Shown here: piece by piece, positions 20,986 through 32,110 of the stretch
Layout: the number at the start of each line of letters is the position of its first letter
Position numbering within the stretch: the first letter of the stretch is position 1
Notes under the pieces: generated by a model
The model's database searches: none
The model's input: only the letters and a program-made list of their open reading frames with translations
What the model was told of the DNA's origin: nothing
NCBI GenBank assembly: GCA_039801505.1
Contig: JBDRUV010000003.1
Coordinates: 1-64,000 of the forward strand
Source of the DNA: a candidate division WOR-3 bacterium
GTDB lineage: Bacteria; Hydrothermota; Tepidihabitantia; Tepidihabitantales; CAIPLT01
Reading direction: 5' to 3'
Length of the DNA stretch: 64,000 nt
Position numbers and translations under genes: made by a program

Positions 20986-21874
20986 GAAAAGTTCGATCAA
21001 TTTGAGTATATATCTGGGTAGTCGCAATATTAGCATGTCCTAACATTTCTTGAACAGCTCGTAAATTAGCCCCTCCTTCAAGAAGATGTGTAGCGAAACT
21101 ATGCCTAAAACTATGAGGTGTCACTTTTTTAGTAATTTTTGCTTTTTTAAGATATTCCTTGAGAATCTTGTGAAGCCCCATTCGAGAAAGTTTCTGACCT
21201 CTTGCGTTCACAAAAAGGTATGGAGAGTTATGTTTCTTTACGAAAAATGGTCGTGCAACTCTACAATATGTTGAAATTGCCTCTAACGCCGGTTTGCCAA
21301 TTGGGACAATCCGTTCTTTATTTCCTTTTCCGACTATCCTAACGAACCCGTCGGTAAAGGATATGTTATCTAATTCTAAAGAAAGCAGTTCTGAAGCCCG
21401 TAATCCAGTTCCATAAAGAACCTCAAAAATCGCCCGAGCCCGTAAATCTTTAGGAGTATTGTTATTTGCCGATTCAATAATTTTTATTATTTCTTCGTAG
21501 GACAATACTGTTGGCAGTTTTTGAGATATTTTTGGTGTTTCTATGTGTTCAGTAGGATTGTGTGCAATTAACTTTTCTGTTATTAAATAATTGAAAAACA
21601 TCTTAATTGAAGTCAGCTTCCGGGCTATTGAAGTCTGTGTCAGGGGTAATTGATGTAAAAATGATATATAATTACTGATATCATTTTCAGTAATATTGTA
21701 TAAATTTTTTTTTGTAGTAACAGCACTAAGGAATTGTTTAACATCTGTACTATAACAATCAACGGTACTACGTGCTAAACTTCGTTCAGTAATTAAGTAA
21801 TTAATAAACGATTTAACTATTTTATTTAACTTATTATTAGAAGAATTAGTAATTCGGCAAGTATTGCTCGTCAT
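20948..21874 (-). CDS. xerD: Tyrosine recombinase XerC/XerD type
   Basis: 308 residues: an N-terminal SAM-like core-binding domain (FINYLITERSLARSTVDCYSTDVKQFL) and a catalytic domain with R in YGTGLRASELLSLEL, K in VGKGNKERIVPIG, HxxR in HSFRHSFATHLLEGG, H in LGHANIATTQIYT and the terminal Tyr of that motif. Length and lack of phage or transposon context favour the chromosome-dimer resolution role at dif. It overlaps the end of nadB by 29 bases. Whether XerC, XerD or a single XerH-like enzyme cannot be decided here. Confidence 0.92.
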   Translation of the reverse strand: MTSNTCRITNSSNNKLNKIVKSFINYLITERSLARSTVDCYSTDVKQFLSAVTTKKNLYNITENDISNYISFLHQLPLTQTSIARKLTSIKMFFNYLITEKLIAHNPTEHIETPKISQKLPTVLSYEEIIKIIESANNNTPKDLRARAIFEVLYGTGLRASELLSLELDNISFTDGFVRIVGKGNKERIVPIGKPALEAISTYCRVARPFFVKKHNSPYLFVNARGQKLSRMGLHKILKEYLKKAKITKKVTPHSFRHSFATHLLEGGANLRAVQEMLGHANIATTQIYTQIDRTFLRETYKMFHPRS

Positions 21875-23453
21875 CTTTTGACTTTTGAAGAACAGTATCT
21901 TTCAAAAAATGTTCATTGTCAATATATGGATAATCTTCTTTATAATGAAGACCTCGAGATTCATTCCTCAGGAAAGCACTTTTTAATACTAAATAGCCTA
22001 CAGTAATCATATTATTAAGTTCGATTAAATCAATCGAGAGAGGTTGAATTTTTTTTGCATGCTTAGCAATTTCAGCAAGTTCAGCTAATGCATTATCAAT
22101 TCGATTATTAGATCGCACAATACCTGCGCCGTTCCACATTATTTTTTGTAGTTTGTCAATTAATATCTTCACCTTGGGATTTTTTTGAATTTCAATCCTT
22201 TTATTATTGTTACAAATGATCTTTTGATATTGTATTTCATGTTTACAGGCAGTCTCTTTAACCCGTCTTGCGGCTTGTTCAGCAAACACTAATGCTTCAA
22301 GCAAGGAATTCGATGCTAAGCGATTCGCTCCATGAAGCCCAGAATGAGCACATTCTCCAATTGCTAAAAGTCCCGGGATGTTGGTTTCACCCCATTGATT
22401 GATTTCGATGCCTCCACAAATGTAATGGGCTGCTGGTACGACAGGTATTGGTTCTTTTGTAATGTCATAACCTAATTGCAAACAAGTATTATAGATGTTA
22501 GGAAAGCGTAATTTTATTCTTTCCGGGTCAAGGTGGGTAACATCAAGTAAAACGTAGTTAGCTCCGCGCTTCTTCATTTCATTATCAATCGCTCGAGCAA
22601 CAATATCCCGTGGTGCTAGGCAGCCCTTTTCATGATAGTTTTCCATGAATGTATTACCATCAATTGTTCGTAGGATACCACCCTCACCCCGAACTGCTTC
22701 AGAAATTAAGAAATATCGATTATCAATTTTTTTACCGTATAATGCTGTTGGGTGAAATTGAATAAACTCCATGTTAGAAACTAATGCACCATTTTTGTAT
22801 GCAATTGCTATACCGTCACCAGTAGCTATTGGAGGATTAGTGGTATGAAGATAAATTTGCCCGATGCCGCCTGTTGCTAATACCATTGCTTTCCCTAAAA
22901 AACAATATACTTTGCCTGTTTTGGTATCAACGGCTTCTACGCCAATACACCGGTTGGTTTTATCTATTATTAAATCAAAAACTAAAAAATGTTCGTAAAA
23001 TACGCAACGTTCTTTAAGTAGTCGGATTAAGCCAGTTTCGATTTCTCGGCCTGTATAATCTTTAGCGTGAACAATTCTTGCTCGACTATGACCTCCTTCT
23101 TTTCCCAAATCAAAACGTTTTATACCTTTAGAATTATAGTAAGTACTGAAATTAATTCCAACTTCATATAGCTCATTGACCAAGCGTGGTCCCATTTCAC
23201 AAACCATACGAACAATTTCGGGCCGGGCTAGACCTTGTCCATTTTTAAGTGTATCCTGATAATGAATTTCTGGAGTATCATCAATTCCTAAGGCTGCGGC
23301 TATTCCACCCTGGGCATAATTGGTATTAGATTCAGTGTTTTCTTTCTTTGTTAATATACATACTTGTCCACTATTAAGAACTCGATACGAAAACCACAAT
23401 CCGGCAATTCCCGAACCAACAACTATGAAGTCAGTAATGATAGTATTACTCAT
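21846..23453 (-). CDS. nadB: L-aspartate oxidase
   Basis: FAD enzyme that makes iminoaspartate from aspartate, first step of NAD synthesis; anaerobes use fumarate as acceptor. 535 residues, full length. FAD motif VGSGIAGLW near residue 12, NYAQGGIAAALG, and the NadB/SdhA catalytic region EGGHSRARIVHAKDYTGREIE; also SLLEALVFAEQAARR and the C-terminal helical domain. nadA and nadC are not in the window. The ATG abuts the stop of the DUF5683-like gene with no spacer. Confidence 0.95.
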   Translation of the reverse strand: MSNTIITDFIVVGSGIAGLWFSYRVLNSGQVCILTKKENTESNTNYAQGGIAAALGIDDTPEIHYQDTLKNGQGLARPEIVRMVCEMGPRLVNELYEVGINFSTYYNSKGIKRFDLGKEGGHSRARIVHAKDYTGREIETGLIRLLKERCVFYEHFLVFDLIIDKTNRCIGVEAVDTKTGKVYCFLGKAMVLATGGIGQIYLHTTNPPIATGDGIAIAYKNGALVSNMEFIQFHPTALYGKKIDNRYFLISEAVRGEGGILRTIDGNTFMENYHEKGCLAPRDIVARAIDNEMKKRGANYVLLDVTHLDPERIKLRFPNIYNTCLQLGYDITKEPIPVVPAAHYICGGIEINQWGETNIPGLLAIGECAHSGLHGANRLASNSLLEALVFAEQAARRVKETACKHEIQYQKIICNNNKRIEIQKNPKVKILIDKLQKIMWNGAGIVRSNNRIDNALAELAEIAKHAKKIQPLSIDLIELNNMITVGYLVLKSAFLRNESRGLHYKEDYPYIDNEHFLKDTVLQKSKDDEQYLPNY

Positions 23454-24107
23454 TTAAAATCTATATTCGATACCTAATTCAGTCTTGTTTAATGAGGTCC
23501 TAAAATTAACTCTCGAAAGTTTATTGAAAGAAAAGTAGTAGCAATCAATTATACTAATGACTCGGTTAAGTAATGAAGCACCAATACAAAAACTGGCGCG
23601 AGTAAATGCTTGTTTTGCTTTTCGTCGTTGATCCCAGTAACGAAATCGTAGCGATTCGCTTTTCCAAGTCCACACTGAATCCCCAAAGTAACCGTTGTTA
23701 TAAAAATAATTAAGCTGTGCTTGAGGATCGTTGGGATATAATGCTCGAGCTTCTCGCCGAATTGCAATGTTATATTCTTCGGCTGAGTTATAGCGTTCAA
23801 GAGCACGAAAATATTTTTCTGATTTTATTTTGATATTAGCGTTTGCATATCTTCGAGCAAACAACAAAGCATCATTGGTTTGAAAAACGCCATATCGGTA
23901 GAAGCCTGAATATAATAACCAAATTGCACTTTCAGCCCAGAGCATAATTTCGCCTTTGTCTTGATCTTTGTTCAGAAATTGTCCCCAACCTGGGATTGCT
24001 GCTGAAGCAAATATGACTTTTGTTTCAGGTCTTAATGCCTGAGCGATTCCTGCTGTTATGTTTAATAGAACTGTTCCCGCAAGAAAAAAAAACATTGGTT
24101 TTATCAT
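23454..24107 (-). CDS. DUF5683-like membrane protein of unknown function
   Basis: 217 residues. A signal-like hydrophobic start (MFFFLAGTVLLNITAGIAQA) precedes the family phrase FASAAIPGWGQFLNKDQDKGEIMLWAESAIWLLYSG, typical of small membrane proteins common in FCB bacteria. Tyr- and Arg-rich soluble stretches follow, and a final hydrophobic segment near 175-190. AAGGA precedes the ATG. Function unknown; it may be an envelope protein. It lies between the M6 protease and nadB in one leftward operon. Confidence 0.6.
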   Translation of the reverse strand: MIKPMFFFLAGTVLLNITAGIAQALRPETKVIFASAAIPGWGQFLNKDQDKGEIMLWAESAIWLLYSGFYRYGVFQTNDALLFARRYANANIKIKSEKYFRALERYNSAEEYNIAIRREARALYPNDPQAQLNYFYNNGYFGDSVWTWKSESLRFRYWDQRRKAKQAFTRASFCIGASLLNRVISIIDCYYFSFNKLSRVNFRTSLNKTELGIEYRF

Positions 24108-24117
24108 GTTTTTATCC

Positions 24118-27100
24118 TTACTTTACAACAGCGAATTTGTAAAATTTTGTTTCTATTTTATTCTTTCCTATAACCTCTAAACGTAGAATGTATATTCCAT
24201 TTTTAATATCATCTAATTTGATTTTAGTTTCATTATCTATTAATGGTATCGAACTGCCCGCAAACTCACAAATTGGTTTTCCTAAAATGTCTAAAAGTGA
24301 TAGTTTAACGTTTGTGACATCAAGTCCTAGCCAATATCTTATTACAATTTCCTGGTCAGCTGGATTAGGATAACTAAAAAAATCTTTGATGAGTGACCCA
24401 GAAATTTGAGGAACTTCAAGAGGTTTATTATATAAATTCCAGTGAGCCGATCCACCTAAATATTGACCCCAAAATATTTGATTAGTTGCCCCTGGTATAT
24501 CCCAGCCATATAAAATTCCATTATTTGAGCCAACGATAATTTCAACATCTCCATCGCTATCAATATCGGCAATTAAAGGAGTAGCACTGATACTGCTAGC
24601 CGAGAGGAGTGGAAAATAATCTATTGTGGTTTGGGTTTTGCCATCAAATCCCAAAAGTCCCCATTGTGGTGAGCCGATTATTACATCACAATACCCATCA
24701 CAATTAAGATCAGCAATCACTGGGGTTGATGCAAATACGAAAGGAATATCAATTGTTATTAGATAATTACCTACTAATTCAGTTTGGGAATAGGTGGAAT
24801 CTAAAATTATTGGATAATTAGTAAGAAGCGCGCCATTAAAATTAAATGCATAAATCTTATTAGCAGCAGCTAAAATAATATCTAAAAATCCGTCTTTATT
24901 TAAATCCGCAACTGCAATTCCTGACGATACTGGTCGTGTAATAATTGGTGTGCTGGAATATTTTATATTTCCCACTAAATCAACTATAACTAATTGTGAG
25001 TTTTTTTCTTTGTGAATAACAACTGCTATTTCTTTATTTCCGTCATTATCAAAATCAGCAATAACTGGGGGAATTGCATTGTACAAAGCGCTATACGACA
25101 AGGTAATGGGAAACTTATTGTGGATTACAGCATCCTGCGGGTTAATTAAAAATAGTTTATGGTCACTACCGAAGGCGACAATTTGGGGGGTGATAGTGTC
25201 AGTAATCCCTACAGCTGAGCGTAACTCGGAATTAAGCAACATTGGAAAGCCAGGAAAGTTGCTACCATCACCTCTCCAGATGTATAGTTTCATGTCAGTT
25301 GATCCGACAATAATTTCTTGTTTTCCGTCGCCGTCTAAATCAGCAAGAGTCGGTGACGACAAAATTCGTCCTTGAGTGTGTAGCTGTAAAACTGGTAAGA
25401 TTCCTTGGTAAGAAAATACGTAAATTGTGCCATTTTCGCAAGTACAAACAATTTCAAGGTTTGAATCGCCTAGTACGTCGCCAATCGCTGGGCTATTAGA
25501 GAGCGGTCCAGGTAATTGAGCAAAATTACCTTGCATATTAGGTAAATATGAAGTACCATCATAATTAAAAACATAAATTCGACCGGCACTATCAGCGATT
25601 ACTATTTCTTGATTCATGTCACGGTTCAAATCGGCAACATGAGGGGAAAAAAGTTTACCACCACGACCAAGATTTATTGGAAAACCTTGTTGATTCAGGT
25701 CAAAATTAACACTTAGATACATTACAGTGTCCGGTTCAGATAGTACTTTGATCGTTATGAAACTTTTACCCGTGTACCCGTCGGACGATGGAGTAGTATT
25801 TACTGAGAACTCATTGTTAATTCCTCCGACAAAAAATGGATCATATGGGGACCCATAATACTGGTAATTTCTATTATATAAAATGTTAAAATCATAATCT
25901 TGGATTCCATCAGCTTCTTCTAAGTCCACTCCTTTGTGAGAGATTTGAGAGATATTTATAGCATTATAAGGTCCGTATTGATCAATAATATTTTCGTCAA
26001 TATGCCAAATCAAAATACCAGAACCAGGTTGCATAAAATCATATTCACCGTCTTCAACCCAGATTAAAACCCCGTCTTCTAAATCTACCACCACGGTATC
26101 TTTTTTACTAACATCACATTGTCGGTTCTCAATTAGAAAATACTCTGTTTCAGTTATTGGCACCTTAATAATAAGTGGTCGTTGAATATTATTATAAAAA
26201 GAAAATCTAGTTGTATCCATACTTGCTGAATATAACGGAATACTTTCTAGCGGCAGATTAACAACTACCGGTTCAATCCATCCGAAATAAACCCGGTGAA
26301 AAGCATCAAGCATACTAGGTATTGCACCTGGGGGGATACCAAGACTATAATCACCGAGCCACGCCCCGGTGCCCATTAAGCTCCAAGAACCAACCCCGAT
26401 TGTGGCACCTGTAACATCATATAAGTCATATCCGCCTAACAGATGAACAAACTCATGGTACAAAGTTCCAGGGTAGCCTAACATTCCTAAAATATTAATC
26501 TGACCGTCGAGAAGCGTATCTTGGCGCATCATTTCAGGCATAATCATTGCTGAATAGATTCTAGTTTGACCTTCGTCAGCTAAAATATAAGGTGTTCCCA
26601 AGTATCGTTCAAATGCAGATGAGGGAATTGTACCTGCCAACAGATCAAATGGACTGTCGCCTCTTAGGTCTGATTGTGGTGCTGAACCAGCGCGAAAGAT
26701 GATTAATAAGTCATAATCACTAAATCGGATGTCTGGATCTCGATCGGCAATTTGAATCGCGTCATATACCAAGCGACATAAACCAGTTTCAGCACCTTCA
26801 TAATCATAGTAAGGGTATTTCCACATAGTATCACCATAGTACATCATAGGATGCGGGAGCACATAAGTTCCTAAGACGCTATTAGGCATTACCCGATAAT
26901 CAATGTATAGTGTCCCCATAGAATTTAGCCAAAAATAATTTTTGAGACCTTCAAGGTGTCGTTCAAAATATCTTCGGGTATGCGGGGGGTCATAGAACAA
27001 TCCATCGTTAGGAGTAAGAAAACCGGCAAGGTCCATTTTACCATTTCCAGTCGTAAGCGGGGTAGTATCTTCCTGAAATTCTACTCGGAGTGCTAATACC

Positions 27101-27339
27101 CTAATAGTATCAACTTGACGAGTTTTTGCAGCATTCCGGATACGAGCCAGCAGATTTCGATAGTGTAGATTTTTGTTTTCTTTTATTCTTATTTGGTTTA
27201 CCAAAAACGTTCTCGTTCGTTCATAATATTGCGTGTTATGCGGTAATGGGATTTTTTTTATTGTGATTCTTTCAGCAATTGCAGTTGAAATAATAAAAGA
27301 AATTCCAAAAAAAAGTAAGTGTTTATATTTAATTAACAT
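24118..27339 (-). CDS. Secreted M6-like metalloprotease with FG-GAP repeats and sorting domain
   Basis: 1073 residues with a signal peptide (FFGISFIISTAIA). The protease domain (about 75-480) has the zinc motif H295-E-F-V-H299 followed by LLGGYDLYD, as in immune-inhibitor-A (M6) peptidases. Residues ~555-960 carry several FG-GAP/VCBS repeats of the form ADLxxDGxxEIIVG..xLYxW, which usually build a beta-propeller and bind Ca2+. A FlgD-like sorting domain ends the protein (SYPNPADQEIVIRYWLG, LLDILGKPI, GIYILRLEV). The ATG lies 16 bases after tRNA-Ser, without a Shine-Dalgarno sequence. Confidence 0.9.
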   Translation of the reverse strand: MLIKYKHLLFFGISFIISTAIAERITIKKIPLPHNTQYYERTRTFLVNQIRIKENKNLHYRNLLARIRNAAKTRQVDTIRVLALRVEFQEDTTPLTTGNGKMDLAGFLTPNDGLFYDPPHTRRYFERHLEGLKNYFWLNSMGTLYIDYRVMPNSVLGTYVLPHPMMYYGDTMWKYPYYDYEGAETGLCRLVYDAIQIADRDPDIRFSDYDLLIIFRAGSAPQSDLRGDSPFDLLAGTIPSSAFERYLGTPYILADEGQTRIYSAMIMPEMMRQDTLLDGQINILGMLGYPGTLYHEFVHLLGGYDLYDVTGATIGVGSWSLMGTGAWLGDYSLGIPPGAIPSMLDAFHRVYFGWIEPVVVNLPLESIPLYSASMDTTRFSFYNNIQRPLIIKVPITETEYFLIENRQCDVSKKDTVVVDLEDGVLIWVEDGEYDFMQPGSGILIWHIDENIIDQYGPYNAINISQISHKGVDLEEADGIQDYDFNILYNRNYQYYGSPYDPFFVGGINNEFSVNTTPSSDGYTGKSFITIKVLSEPDTVMYLSVNFDLNQQGFPINLGRGGKLFSPHVADLNRDMNQEIVIADSAGRIYVFNYDGTSYLPNMQGNFAQLPGPLSNSPAIGDVLGDSNLEIVCTCENGTIYVFSYQGILPVLQLHTQGRILSSPTLADLDGDGKQEIIVGSTDMKLYIWRGDGSNFPGFPMLLNSELRSAVGITDTITPQIVAFGSDHKLFLINPQDAVIHNKFPITLSYSALYNAIPPVIADFDNDGNKEIAVVIHKEKNSQLVIVDLVGNIKYSSTPIITRPVSSGIAVADLNKDGFLDIILAAANKIYAFNFNGALLTNYPIILDSTYSQTELVGNYLITIDIPFVFASTPVIADLNCDGYCDVIIGSPQWGLLGFDGKTQTTIDYFPLLSASSISATPLIADIDSDGDVEIIVGSNNGILYGWDIPGATNQIFWGQYLGGSAHWNLYNKPLEVPQISGSLIKDFFSYPNPADQEIVIRYWLGLDVTNVKLSLLDILGKPICEFAGSSIPLIDNETKIKLDDIKNGIYILRLEVIGKNKIETKFYKFAVVK

Positions 27340-27355
27340 TATCGTAATAAATAAC

Positions 27356-27442
27356 CGGAGAGAGGGGGATTCGAACCCCCGTTTGCCTTACGGCAAAACA
27401 TGATTTCGAGTCATGCGCCTTCGTCCACTCGGCCATCTCTCC
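27356..27442 (-). tRNA. tRNA-Ser (CGA)
   Basis: An 87-nt class II tRNA with a 7-bp acceptor stem (GGAGAGA with TCTCTCC), long variable arm (TTGCCGTAAGGCAA) and anticodon loop CTCGAAA, giving CGA. CCA is not encoded. The M6 protease gene starts 16 bases downstream on the same strand, and tadA ends 78 bases upstream. Confidence 0.95.
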
Positions 27443-27520: not shown

Positions 27521-27991
27521 TTAGTGAAGAACTTTTTTACGGTGTTTTTTAAAAAACTGTGTAAGAAGTCTTCGACTTTCGTCGGCTAAAACGCCAGATT
27601 TGACTTGGAATTTATGGTTGAGTTTATTGTCTAAAGGAACATTGTAAACTGAACCGCAGGCACCGAATTTGGGGTCAAATGCAGCAAATACTAATTTTTT
27701 GATTCGAGCTAAAATCAGCGCGCCAGTACACATTACACATGGTTCTAAGGTTACATACACTAATGCTTCAGTAAGTCGCCAGTTGTTAAGGTAATTACTT
27801 GCAGCACTTAGAGCAATGATTTCAGCATGTGCAGTAGGATCGCGAAGCTTTTCGGTTTGATTATGGCCTTGTCCAATGATTTTATTGTTATAAACAACTA
27901 CAGCACCCACCGGAACTTCATCTTCCTCAAATGCTTTTTGTGCCTCAACCAAGGCTAATTGCATCCAGTATTCATCCGAAAAGTTACGCAT
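27521..27991 (-). CDS. tadA: tRNA-specific adenosine deaminase
   Basis: Converts A34 to inosine in tRNA-Arg(ACG). 156 residues from ATG 27991; a longer frame to 28063 would read through a tRNA gene and is rejected. Catalytic motifs: HAEIIAL (zinc His and catalytic Glu) and LEPCVMCTGAL (PCxxC). The gene starts 13 bases after the 3' end of tRNA-Arg(ACG), the enzyme's own substrate, and has no Shine-Dalgarno sequence, so both are likely made from one transcript. Confidence 0.96.
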   Translation of the reverse strand: MRNFSDEYWMQLALVEAQKAFEEDEVPVGAVVVYNNKIIGQGHNQTEKLRDPTAHAEIIALSAASNYLNNWRLTEALVYVTLEPCVMCTGALILARIKKLVFAAFDPKFGACGSVYNVPLDNKLNHKFQVKSGVLADESRRLLTQFFKKHRKKVLH

Positions 27992-28004
27992 TGTAAATAT
28001 CTTA

Positions 28005-28078
28005 CGCGCCCGGCGCGACTCGAACGCGCAACCTACGGATTCGTAGTCCGGCACTCTATCCAATTGAGCTACGGGCGC
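28005..28078 (-). tRNA. tRNA-Arg (ACG)
   Basis: A 74-nt tRNA with a 7-bp acceptor stem (GCGCCCG with CGGGCGC) and T arm GCGCG-TTCGAGT-CGCGC. The anticodon loop CTACGAA gives ACG, whose A34 is edited to inosine by TadA. The first pair of the anticodon stem (27-43) is a C-U mismatch. CCA is not encoded. Confidence 0.94.
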
Positions 28079-28091
28079 ATATCTAAATATT

Positions 28092-28119
28092 ATTTTACAA
28101 GAAAATTTATTATTGTCAA
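28092..28119 (-). promoter_or_regulatory. Promoter of tRNA-Arg and tadA
   Basis: On the - strand TTGACA (28114-28119), a 16-base spacer and TAAAAT (28092-28097). +1 is about 7-8 bases before the tRNA 5' end. Confidence 0.65.
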
Positions 28120-28162: not shown

Positions 28163-28207
28163 CTAAATAAAAAGGGTGTAACCGTCGAGATGTACGGTTA
28201 CACCCTT
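28163..28207 (-). terminator. Intrinsic terminator of the kelch/CARDB surface protein gene
   Basis: A perfect 14-bp stem (28172-28185 with 28194-28207) with an 8-base loop. On the - strand it is followed by TTTTTATTT. It lies 22 bases after the stop of the gene ending at 28229 and insulates the tRNA-Arg promoter. Confidence 0.9.
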
Positions 28208-28228: not shown

Positions 28229-31200
28229 TTACTTTTTGATGATGACTTTTTCGGTAAGCGCTTTATTGTCAGCGTCTAATTTTACAAAGTAAATACCTGC
28301 CGGAAGTTTGGGGAGATTAATCGTAAGCACGCTGTTGTTAGCGGGTGTTAATTCAGAACTAAAGCTGGCAACGAGCTGTCCGTTGATGGTATATAATTTA
28401 GTAATAAGCGAAGTAGCGGTAGTTGTGGTATAATTAATTTTAAGAGTTGTAGATACAATATTAGAATTGAGGTTTAAGCTAACTTGGCCAAGTTCTGTCG
28501 TTTTCTCGGTAGTTATCGCTTTCTGGGTATGAAGACTCAAGATATTCTCATCGTTCATATTAGGATTCGGTTTATACTTAAAGAAGTCTGGCGTATTGTT
28601 ACCCTTTAAGGCATAAATTGTGCCGTCAACTGCGGTAAGAGCCGCACCAGCACCGACTTTCTTATTGTAAGCTGGACTATTGATAATGTTATCACAAGCG
28701 CGCCAGCTGTTGGTTTGGATGTTATAACGCCAAAATTCGTAGCTATTACCTTTTAGCGCATAGATTTGGGGCACGAAGTTAGTAATCGTATAGGCAAGAG
28801 CGGTTCCTTTGCCAATTTTTTTGGCGTTCGGAAACGTTGTTGGGATTCCATCTAGGTTGATCCAAGTATCGCTTGAAACATTATATAGATAGAACTCGCT
28901 CACGGTACCGCCTTTTACTAAGTAGATAAAATACTGACCGTCAGTAGTAATCGCACTGCCATCTTTTACTTTAGCTTTACCTGTTGGGCCTAGTGGAATT
29001 TGCGCAACTAAAGTATCCCACGTATCCGCAGCAATCTTGTATCGGAAGAACTGCGTGGTGTTATTACCCTTAACCAAGTACACATAGTCGCCATTCTCAG
29101 ACTTGACATAAGCTAGGCCGGCGCCACCAGCGATCTTTACTTCTTTTTTCGAATTCGGAGCTCTGAGCGGTACATCTTGCAGTTCATTCCATGTGTCACG
29201 AGCAATATTATACATTAAAAACTTAGTTGTTTTGTTGCCAACAATTGCGTATATGTTGTTTTCACCATCGTTACATAAGCTGGCACCATTGCCGACAAAA
29301 AGTCCGTTTGGTAGACTTCGTTTTGGCGTCCACGTATTATTTTCGATGTTGTAGTGATAGAAAAGGTTAGTTTTATTGCCGACAAAAGCGTATATACCTT
29401 TCTGAGGTACATAAGTTAACGCACCACCGTCTTTGACGCGATAAGTTTGTGAAATTGGCGCCAAACTCGACCAACCATAATCTTGGACTTCAGTAACTGT
29501 CACGGTAGTATCCCGGTGATTGTTACTTACTTGCTGGTCGCCGTCTAGTAGCACCGTGCATCTTACGGTATAAGTACCGGTATTGGCAGCCCAATTCGGG
29601 AAGTAAATAATCTGCGAGGTGCGTCGTGGTAGTTCGACAGTTGCTTCGCTAACGTACACCGGAAAACTTTGATTGCGCGGATAAATTTTCAATTGCACAA
29701 TAAATTCTTCGGTAGTATTGCCAAAGTTATGAATTACCACCTGGGTTGGTAAGAAGCCAATTGATTTACGACCAGTCGGTTCTGAAATTCTAGCTACGCC
29801 AACATCCCGATATACATTTTGAAATGCTCGAAAACTCAAACCTATGCGGTTATCGGTAGTATCAATATCACCGCCAACCGAGACTTCCGAGGAGATATAA
29901 TATTCTCCGGGATCAGTAATTTGATTACAAGGATCGAAAACGATGGTGCGTTCTTCATTAGGCATTAGAGGAATCGAGATGTACGCAGTAGACGAGTAGA
30001 TGATGTCTTTTGTAGTGCTATTGGTAATATCCGTCGTAACCGATCCAGTAAACGGCACGTTACCGTTATTTTTAACTCTTACTCGCGGATAGATGGTTCT
30101 TCCAGCTTGGACCGTATCGGTTGGTGACTTAATACTCACGAGCGAAATGTTTATTGTCGGAGAGGTTACGACAAAAACTTTGCTAATTTCATCATTATTC
30201 GGATTTAAATCATAAGGGAAAATCGTTCGGAAGGTAATTTCGTAAGTTCCAGTTTGCGGTGGTTGCCATTCAGGGAAGAAGACCATCCCGGAGACGCTAT
30301 CGAATACCGTGACATAGTTGGTATCCGTCCAAATCGGCACTCCAGCGTATTTTATCACCAACTCGACCGGGGTGTTAATATAATAGTTACTATAATTGTT
30401 AATTACAGCACGAGGAATAAATCCAGCGTGCGGTATTGTATCTTCCGGGGCCTCGATATAAACCGGTGCGACATCCCTGTAGGGCACAAACAAGGTGCGC
30501 ACAACCGAATCATTCGTCGGGTTATTATCACCGGGTAGGGTTGTTTTACAAATAAGTTTATAGCGACCAGGAGCTGTTGTCCACGAAGTATAGTTAACTG
30601 TATCATCGTCACAGAAACCTAATTGAGTACTAGCTGTTGCGGAATATACTACACCAATTCCGATTTTTTCAATTCGGAAAATTGACGGAATATTTATGGT
30701 TTGAGTTATAAAACTCCGATTAGCAATTCGAGCCTGTGGGATAAGGTTGATTGTAGGTTCAACAATTTCAATGTTCGGTCTAGTGATATCAATTACTTTA
30801 GCATCATATTGAGGAATCCAGGTTGAAGCCCGTGCGGTATCATTGGCGCGGTTCTGATCAGCTGGGAGCATTGTAAAAGCAACTACCTCGTAAGGATATA
30901 CGCTGGCTTGAGGATTCCAGGGGATCCGATATTCAATTTCATGGCTCACAAGCGAAGGTAATGCAATTGTCGTCTCAGCTAAATACACAACTTGTGTTTG
31001 ATAGTTTTTAATCTGTAGTTTAGTTACAAATGTTTCAGCTTGAGAACCGTAGTTTTTTACGATAATTTTAGGATATACCGGAAACTCTGTAACTTCGCCG
31101 ACCGGCTTAATAATACTTAAAACCCCAACATCCCGATAAGTTGGAGCCACAACCCGGAAAATTCGCGACATCGTATCATTAGCTGGATTCATGTCGCCAG

Positions 31201-32110
31201 TATGGCATTTACCGTAAGTAGCATTTAGAGTTTGGAATTTTACTTTATAAGTTCCTTCCGACAGAGTAATTTCACGAAAAACTGCATCACCAGTTCCATT
31301 AGCCAGTAAGGATTGGATATTTAACGAATCAACATAGAGTTGCGTTCCTTGGGGGAGACGAGTAATATAACACTTTACCTTAAATGATGTAATTTCGGTT
31401 CCAAAATTTTTCACAACTGCTTGGGGATTAAATGGAGTCGGCGTTATTACCGTGTCAGGTGCTTTAATTTCAATAACGCCAACATCAAGTGGTGGTTTTC
31501 TTATTGTTCCGCCAACGTCGTCGATAAACACCCCGTGACGATTCGGATTATCAGCACAATACCGGAATGCCACATAGATTGGTTGGTTAATAAATGAAGC
31601 AAGCGACACCGTTCGTAATGTATAGTCCCAGGTTTTTATGCTAAAAGCGTCCACCCGATAGCCAGTGGCCGGATTCATAAAATCCTGTGGCGTATTTCCA
31701 GCTCGCGATACCCAAACTTCCAAACTTTCTTTTTGATTTTGGGTGTATCCTCGATACCAGAAGGTTAAAGTATATCCTGTAGTCGTCGGATATATTCTTG
31801 GTGTCACTAACCAGTCGTTATTCGGAACCTGCGGATTCCCACCTTGCCCACCACCATAGGTTTTAGGGCAAAATGCACAACCCGGTTGACTGCGTGGGCC
31901 ACGACCATCCTGTTGCCATTCGGATTTATCATAAGGTGCGGTTGAATCTTCTAAATTATAAACAGTCCACCCAGCCGGTGGAAATATCGGCCCATTAAAA
32001 GATTCCGAGAAATACTGGGCAAATGTTATATTGCCTAAAATAAATAAAATTAGCAATACCCGATTCATAAGCCCCCCTCTCGTTTCGGTTTTACCTAACA
32101 TTTTTTTCAT
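28229..32110 (-). CDS. Large secreted surface protein: choice-of-anchor J, CARDB-like repeats, kelch propeller, sorting domain
   Basis: 1293 residues, or 1279 from an internal ATG at 32068 that begins the signal peptide MNRVLLILFILGNITFAQ; both starts have a Shine-Dalgarno sequence (AAGGAG and GAGGGGGG). Order: a choice-of-anchor J jelly roll (ESFNGPIFPPAGWTVYN ... VFIDDVGG, to ~205); about seven CARDB-like Ig repeats of the form RDVGVxxIxxP...PxxxVxNYG (to ~905); five or six kelch-like blades with YNIxxDTW and LVKGxxTxxFxxY; and a C-terminal sorting domain. Probably an adhesin or surface-layer protein rather than an enzyme. Monocistronic, with a good terminator. Confidence 0.85.
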   Translation of the reverse strand: MKKMLGKTETRGGLMNRVLLILFILGNITFAQYFSESFNGPIFPPAGWTVYNLEDSTAPYDKSEWQQDGRGPRSQPGCAFCPKTYGGGQGGNPQVPNNDWLVTPRIYPTTTGYTLTFWYRGYTQNQKESLEVWVSRAGNTPQDFMNPATGYRVDAFSIKTWDYTLRTVSLASFINQPIYVAFRYCADNPNRHGVFIDDVGGTIRKPPLDVGVIEIKAPDTVITPTPFNPQAVVKNFGTEITSFKVKCYITRLPQGTQLYVDSLNIQSLLANGTGDAVFREITLSEGTYKVKFQTLNATYGKCHTGDMNPANDTMSRIFRVVAPTYRDVGVLSIIKPVGEVTEFPVYPKIIVKNYGSQAETFVTKLQIKNYQTQVVYLAETTIALPSLVSHEIEYRIPWNPQASVYPYEVVAFTMLPADQNRANDTARASTWIPQYDAKVIDITRPNIEIVEPTINLIPQARIANRSFITQTINIPSIFRIEKIGIGVVYSATASTQLGFCDDDTVNYTSWTTAPGRYKLICKTTLPGDNNPTNDSVVRTLFVPYRDVAPVYIEAPEDTIPHAGFIPRAVINNYSNYYINTPVELVIKYAGVPIWTDTNYVTVFDSVSGMVFFPEWQPPQTGTYEITFRTIFPYDLNPNNDEISKVFVVTSPTINISLVSIKSPTDTVQAGRTIYPRVRVKNNGNVPFTGSVTTDITNSTTKDIIYSSTAYISIPLMPNEERTIVFDPCNQITDPGEYYISSEVSVGGDIDTTDNRIGLSFRAFQNVYRDVGVARISEPTGRKSIGFLPTQVVIHNFGNTTEEFIVQLKIYPRNQSFPVYVSEATVELPRRTSQIIYFPNWAANTGTYTVRCTVLLDGDQQVSNNHRDTTVTVTEVQDYGWSSLAPISQTYRVKDGGALTYVPQKGIYAFVGNKTNLFYHYNIENNTWTPKRSLPNGLFVGNGASLCNDGENNIYAIVGNKTTKFLMYNIARDTWNELQDVPLRAPNSKKEVKIAGGAGLAYVKSENGDYVYLVKGNNTTQFFRYKIAADTWDTLVAQIPLGPTGKAKVKDGSAITTDGQYFIYLVKGGTVSEFYLYNVSSDTWINLDGIPTTFPNAKKIGKGTALAYTITNFVPQIYALKGNSYEFWRYNIQTNSWRACDNIINSPAYNKKVGAGAALTAVDGTIYALKGNNTPDFFKYKPNPNMNDENILSLHTQKAITTEKTTELGQVSLNLNSNIVSTTLKINYTTTTATSLITKLYTINGQLVASFSSELTPANNSVLTINLPKLPAGIYFVKLDADNKALTEKVIIKK

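Follow-up and report, generated by a model that had tools for sequence, protein, structure and literature searches.

That a tRNA can share a transcript with a protein acting on it is already known. In Escherichia coli, the tufB operon (thrU-tyrU-glyT-thrT-tufB) places tRNA genes in one transcription unit with the gene for a tRNA-binding protein, EF-Tu; as this protein binds every elongator tRNA, the operon differs from the locus described here in having no single-substrate match. The pylT-pylS clusters, which are dedicated code-expansion cassettes, link a tRNA to the enzyme acting on that one tRNA, whereas tadA and tRNA-Arg(ACG) are core translation genes and are unlinked in other phyla sampled. 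In mitochondrial tRNA punctuation, the coding sequence is bordered by tRNAs, with spacers of a few bases or none, and can extend into a tRNA. The present locus shares the tRNA-flanked coding sequence but lies on a bacterial chromosome, and as far as seen the arrangement is limited to one block.

The metY-nusA-infB operon of E. coli is headed by an initiator tRNA gene and encodes IF2, and the tRNA is cut from the polycistronic RNA (PMC6511841). As in the locus analyzed here, a tRNA gene heads an operon with a protein acting on that tRNA class. The two arrangements differ in that metY is a minor copy, infB, several genes away, is served by promoters of its own, and IF2 acts as a partner rather than a modifier of the tRNA, whereas at the locus from candidate division WOR-3 the only ACG tRNA found abuts its predicted editing enzyme. 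In Bacillus, scr-dnaX lies downstream of tadA (PMC10454642). This locus and those of Nitrospira and Deltaproteobacteria MAGs also place tadA beside structured RNA genes, with tRNA-Ser(CGA) downstream, but without tRNA-Arg(ACG) upstream.

An earlier sequence-only reading of this DNA knew of no described substrate–enzyme operon of this type. For tadA this agrees with the literature searched, most subscription journals lying outside it, in which we found no description of a link to tRNA-Arg(ACG); the general idea, however, has a precedent in metY-nusA-infB (PMC6511841). The distinct feature is a single-substrate enzyme that abuts the only gene for its substrate, phylum-wide.

The tRNA-Arg(ACG)-tadA-tRNA-Ser(CGA) locus

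The window, the whole 64,000-nucleotide stretch that was analyzed, belongs to a 1.94-Mb genome that is ~96% complete. The features of the locus, in the direction of transcription, are as follows.

28172–28207 (−): terminator-like hairpin closing the upstream gene (28229–32110); 14-pair stem, T tail TTTATTTAGC
28092–28119 (−): sigma-70-like promoter TTGACA-16-TAAAAT before the tRNA, 11/12 consensus positions; equivalent sites in relatives
28005–28078 (−): tRNA-Arg(ACG), predicted TadA substrate; ARAGORN and Rfam, 63.4 bits
27992–28004 (−): 13-nt spacer TAAGATATTTACA, without Shine-Dalgarno motif, predicted unpaired
27521–27991 (−): tadA, 156 aa; NCBIfam equivalog, PDB match, motifs
27356–27442 (−): tRNA-Ser(CGA), conserved third member of the block; ARAGORN, Rfam, relatives
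24118–27339 (−): ORF of 1073 aa, M6-type metallopeptidase-like (family from reading the sequence), starting 16 nt after tRNA-Ser

The tRNA-Arg forms a cloverleaf, with the ACG anticodon within a CUACGAA loop, and CCA is not encoded. The tadA ORF follows on the same strand after 13 nt; ARAGORN, Rfam and the TadA equivalog model bore out the gene order given by the sequence-only reading. The protein matched the NCBIfam TadA equivalog NF008113 over its full length (188.9 bits vs a cut-off of 150), gave the TadA chain 1z3a as its best PDB match, and aligned over its length with solved TadA chains. Additionally, it contains the HAE and PCxxC zinc/catalytic deaminase motifs (TAHAEI and EPCVMC, read directly in the protein). 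Judged by these features, the ORF is a genuine tadA, encoding tRNA adenosine(34) deaminase, which is predicted to deaminate A34 of tRNA-Arg(ACG). The same reading had described the unit as tRNA-Arg plus tadA; the pair is real, but tRNA-Ser(CGA), located 77 nt past the tadA stop, had been overlooked.

With the pattern used, tRNA-Arg(ACG) was found once in this genome, so its whole supply would come from this unit; only one further Arg-NCG tRNA was seen (TCG). By our own arithmetic, if this one tRNA were placed at random in a 1.94-Mb genome, it would fall ≤45 nt upstream of tadA, in the same orientation, with a chance of ~1e-5. On the 3′ side of tRNA-Ser, the 1073-aa metallopeptidase-like, 217-aa and nadB-like ORFs follow each other nearly without gaps (21846–27339, −), and the transcript may therefore extend further. 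The 1073-aa ORF is a possible further member of it, and a similar ORF also comes after the block in an order-level relative (G006).

Conservation of the block within and outside the phylum

With ARAGORN, we located the tRNAs around tadA in 60 relatives, elsewhere in the phylum and in the class to which an Ignavibacteria genome belongs; for the phylum, upstream Arg(ACG) was counted at loci whose upstream flank measured 600 nt or more (n = 103). At the class level, Arg(ACG) lies upstream on the same strand in 43 of the 47 tadA loci; of the exceptions, two are truncated or damaged where their contigs end. Across the phylum the corresponding number is 67/103, with a gap ≤45 nt in 38; the pair is missing in the other 36. 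The sequence-only reading had proposed a survey of relatives and would have been refuted by a lack of conservation; instead, the adjacency is kept across the phylum, the gap being as short as 3–41 nt, a range retained in several separate clades. Where a same-strand tRNA lies ≤500 nt upstream of tadA (n = 67), the closest one is Arg(ACG) in 65 loci and Lys(CTT) in two. The TadA of locus L031 (candidate division WOR-3 bacterium SKYB20), which is matched by the tadA contig of the same-genus relative G001, is 82% identical to that of the window.

The members of the block can also occur singly. Arg(ACG) lies ≤500 nt from tadA without Ser(CGA), the flank being present, in 12 loci, and Ser(CGA) without Arg(ACG) in eight. 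In three relatives (G006, G031 and G053), the genes flanking the block differ and the block stays. On a weakly supported TadA tree of 149 rows, the Arg label changes 11 times and the Ser label 14 times, so each appears to be clustered by descent, with several gains or losses.

Co-loss of tadA and tRNA-Arg(ACG) was considered and set aside. Genomes without a tadA match are also without an intact ACG tRNA, but they are mostly fragmentary, and adjacency makes joint absence trivial in incomplete assemblies. The single-contig G043 has only 30 tRNAs, and flank tracing revealed no clean deletion scar. In-frame stops in some tadA matches probably reflect alignments that reach or pass the gene end. Truncated tRNA-Arg-like halves with no tadA nearby (1493–1540 of L155 from G049, ACG; 1490–1550 of L148 from G047) look like remnants or assembly breaks, and Rfam detected no group I introns in them. 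In several class-level relatives (L006 and L009–L015), a similar-looking imperfect inverted repeat lies right after tRNA-Arg(ACG) and is followed by a TCCCGAG-like motif. It has no Rfam match at the gathering threshold and may represent a repeat element or an RNA acting in cis.

Among the loci sampled outside the phylum, the tadA-Arg(ACG) pair was found only in Ignavibacteria/Bacteroidota, in a looser form. About half of the loci in the Ignavibacteria class have Arg(ACG) and/or Arg(TCG) near tadA, at 15–1200 nt and in either orientation. No Arg(ACG) was detected beside tadA in the Proteobacteria, Actinobacteria, Firmicutes, Nitrospira and other phyla sampled, mostly with 3-kb flanks. Since Nitrospira and Deltaproteobacteria MAGs have the order tadA-Ser(CGA)-Ser(GGA)-SRP RNA without Arg(ACG) upstream, Ser(CGA) is probably the older tadA neighbor; Arg(ACG) is probably a feature of WOR-3 and Ignavibacteria.

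Transcription of the block and the tadA stop codon

Promoters were sought as sigma-70-like pairs matching at least 9/12 positions, in the 55 nt before the tRNA vs inside the tRNA and gap, with shuffles as the control. Among the 39 tight loci (gap ≤45 nt, one short-flank locus included), such a site precedes the tRNA in 35, vs 23% of shuffles, and lies inside the tRNA and gap in two, vs 6% of shuffles. In the window, the consensus scan placed an 11/12 site before the tRNA and none clear in the spacer, consistent with the single promoter that the sequence-only reading had put ahead of both genes. The spacer also lacks a terminator; among linked loci, only L030 has a terminator-like hairpin between tRNA-Arg and tadA. 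Because gaps of 3–41 nt give tadA no room for a promoter in the gap, joint transcription is very likely. The co-transcription suggested by that reading is therefore well supported by these gaps and by the promoter placement. In other families of the class, the gaps are looser (47–449 nt), so that a separate tadA promoter is possible there; a promoter-like site occurs in the last 80 nt in 8/27.

The spacer between tRNA-Arg and tadA varies in length and sequence among relatives, and the tRNA with its spacer folds no better than shuffles (z-scores near zero), by which a special structure was rejected. The missing Shine-Dalgarno motif was likewise discarded as a peculiarity of tadA: most window ORFs are without one, and only 9/43 have a similar motif. 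This scarcity, together with some TATAAT-like boxes just before starts, hints at common leaderless initiation in the window. As for tRNA 3′ processing, on which the release of tadA mRNA would depend according to the sequence-only reading, the best match to the RNase Z model TIGR02651 in the ~96% complete assembly reached 37.9 bits vs a cut-off of 293, and the only candidate is a 275-aa metallo-beta-lactamase-like protein.

Ser(CGA) is directly downstream of tadA in 64/108 phylum loci, and in 17 phylum loci the tadA frame ends inside it. In nine genomes (L296, L302, L303, L304, L308, L313, L316, L317 and L328), the frame terminates at the TGA in the D-arm of the tRNA; at eight of these nine loci, TadA has the C-terminus ...RRDG, encoded by the tRNA gene. 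In the other eight (L005, L020, L026, L126, L287, L291, L326 and L333), the frame runs 23–47 nt into the tRNA. The window genome, with its 77-nt spacer, has no such overlap. With the stop located inside tRNA-Ser, cleavage by RNase P would strip the tadA message of its stop in the 17 loci. A self-limiting block, in which tRNA maturation and TadA synthesis would compete for one RNA, and the action of TadA or of tRNA nucleases on the flanking tRNAs would set how much tadA message survives, is conceivable but doubtful; in the 17 loci, a transcript would then give either tRNA-Ser or repeated TadA translation.

Competing explanations and TadA dosage

What can be read in the DNA is the identity of the genes, their order, strand and spacing, where the promoter lies, and how deeply the block is conserved; from this we infer a joint transcript. 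The arrangement that we consider the probable one is a mixed tRNA-mRNA-tRNA unit, consisting of tRNA-Arg(ACG), tadA and tRNA-Ser(CGA) and served by one promoter before tRNA-Arg. RNA polymerase would make a single precursor, from which RNase P and 3′-end nucleases would excise the tRNAs, with the tadA message left between them. Each transcript would thereby provide one tRNA substrate and one potential TadA message. Since the sole tRNA-Arg(ACG) gene found sits in the unit, TadA supply would follow tRNA supply.

Two other readings concern the leader of tadA. If tadA were transcribed from a separate promoter, located in the spacer or in the 3′ portion of the tRNA, it would be expressed from a nearly leaderless message and the genes would be mere neighbors. 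The low frequency of Shine-Dalgarno-like motifs noted above, the TATAAT-like boxes near the start of several window ORFs, and a weak −10-like TAAGAT in the spacer TAAGATATTTACA are compatible with this. A separate promoter is also what the sequence-only reading had named as evidence against the operon; in the tight loci, however, sites inside the tRNA and gap (2/39) are no commoner than in shuffles, and gaps of 3–8 nt are too short to hold one, which makes this explanation very unlikely. Alternatively, TadA might bind the unprocessed tRNA-Arg precursor in the tadA 5′ leader, slowing tRNA release or tadA translation. The leader does hold a natural TadA substrate, with its UACG anticodon loop, 13 nt upstream of tadA, and E. 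coli TadA also edits mRNAs presenting such stem-loops (PMC13170351). The variable length and sequence of the spacer, the lack of a conserved structure in it, and the shuffle-like folding of the tRNA plus spacer argue against such feedback, and we judge it unlikely.

A further possibility, which we consider less probable than the mixed unit with matched supply, is that the genes are co-transcribed only through inheritance of an ancestral tadA/tRNA neighborhood, without functional coupling, the enzyme–substrate match being coincidental. Ser(CGA), which is not a TadA substrate, is kept too and is just as conserved; the tadA-Ser(CGA)-Ser(GGA)-SRP RNA order of the Nitrospira and Deltaproteobacteria MAGs points to an old tRNA-rich neighborhood; and the Ignavibacteria have Arg(ACG)/Arg(TCG) near tadA at variable distance, even in opposite orientation. 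Furthermore, other tRNA species keep protein neighbors over the same divergence. In a control comparison of the class-level relatives G006 and G031, 11 of the 41 shared tRNA species keep some protein neighbor within 1.2 kb: among them are Trp with tuf and ribosomal-protein-operon genes, Gln with ispE and a ribosomal-protein gene, Ser with gltX, Pro(CGG) with pcm, and Arg(CCG) with a nitroreductase (names from sequence reading). These neighbors are kept without substrate–enzyme logic, so retention alone is no proof of function. Against mere inheritance stand the identity of the closest upstream tRNA (Arg(ACG) in 65/67), the gap that stays at 3–41 nt in several separate clades, and the persistence of the pair where Ser(CGA) has been lost or the flanking genes have changed. 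tadA was also the only neighbor in the control recognized as a modifier of the adjacent tRNA. We also examined TilS, another anticodon editor, which acts on tRNA-Ile; none of its loci in 23 relatives is flanked by a tRNA (0/23), and enzyme–substrate linkage is therefore no general habit of these genomes.

In the same pair of genomes, the nitroreductase-like gene lies downstream of tRNA-Arg(CCG), the other CGN tRNA (G031 L222, G006 L189), and Ala(CGC) keeps a pyruvoyl-dependent arginine decarboxylase-like gene (G006 L185, G031 L216).

For the mixed unit with a common promoter, the remaining question is why the order was kept. In E. coli, mRNAs and tRNA-Arg2 compete for TadA: mRNA editing falls when extra tRNA-Arg2 is supplied, and hundreds of mRNAs are edited when TadA is in surplus (PMC13170351). 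B. subtilis is viable without TadA (PMC10454642), so tight TadA dosage is not universally vital. By analogy with the E. coli findings, the reason that we favor, tentatively and with less confidence than the joint transcript, is that TadA supply may be matched to its substrate.

The locus bears on how cells match the amount of a tRNA-editing enzyme to that of its substrate; too little TadA leaves A34 unedited. The tadA stop codon that overlaps tRNA-Ser in some members of the phylum is, in addition, an unusual coding arrangement for a bacterial chromosome. A phylum in which a tRNA is transcribed together with its editor would amount to a natural experiment in hard-wired stoichiometry, and the tRNA-Arg-tadA unit offers a simple construct with which to test whether uncoupling matters.
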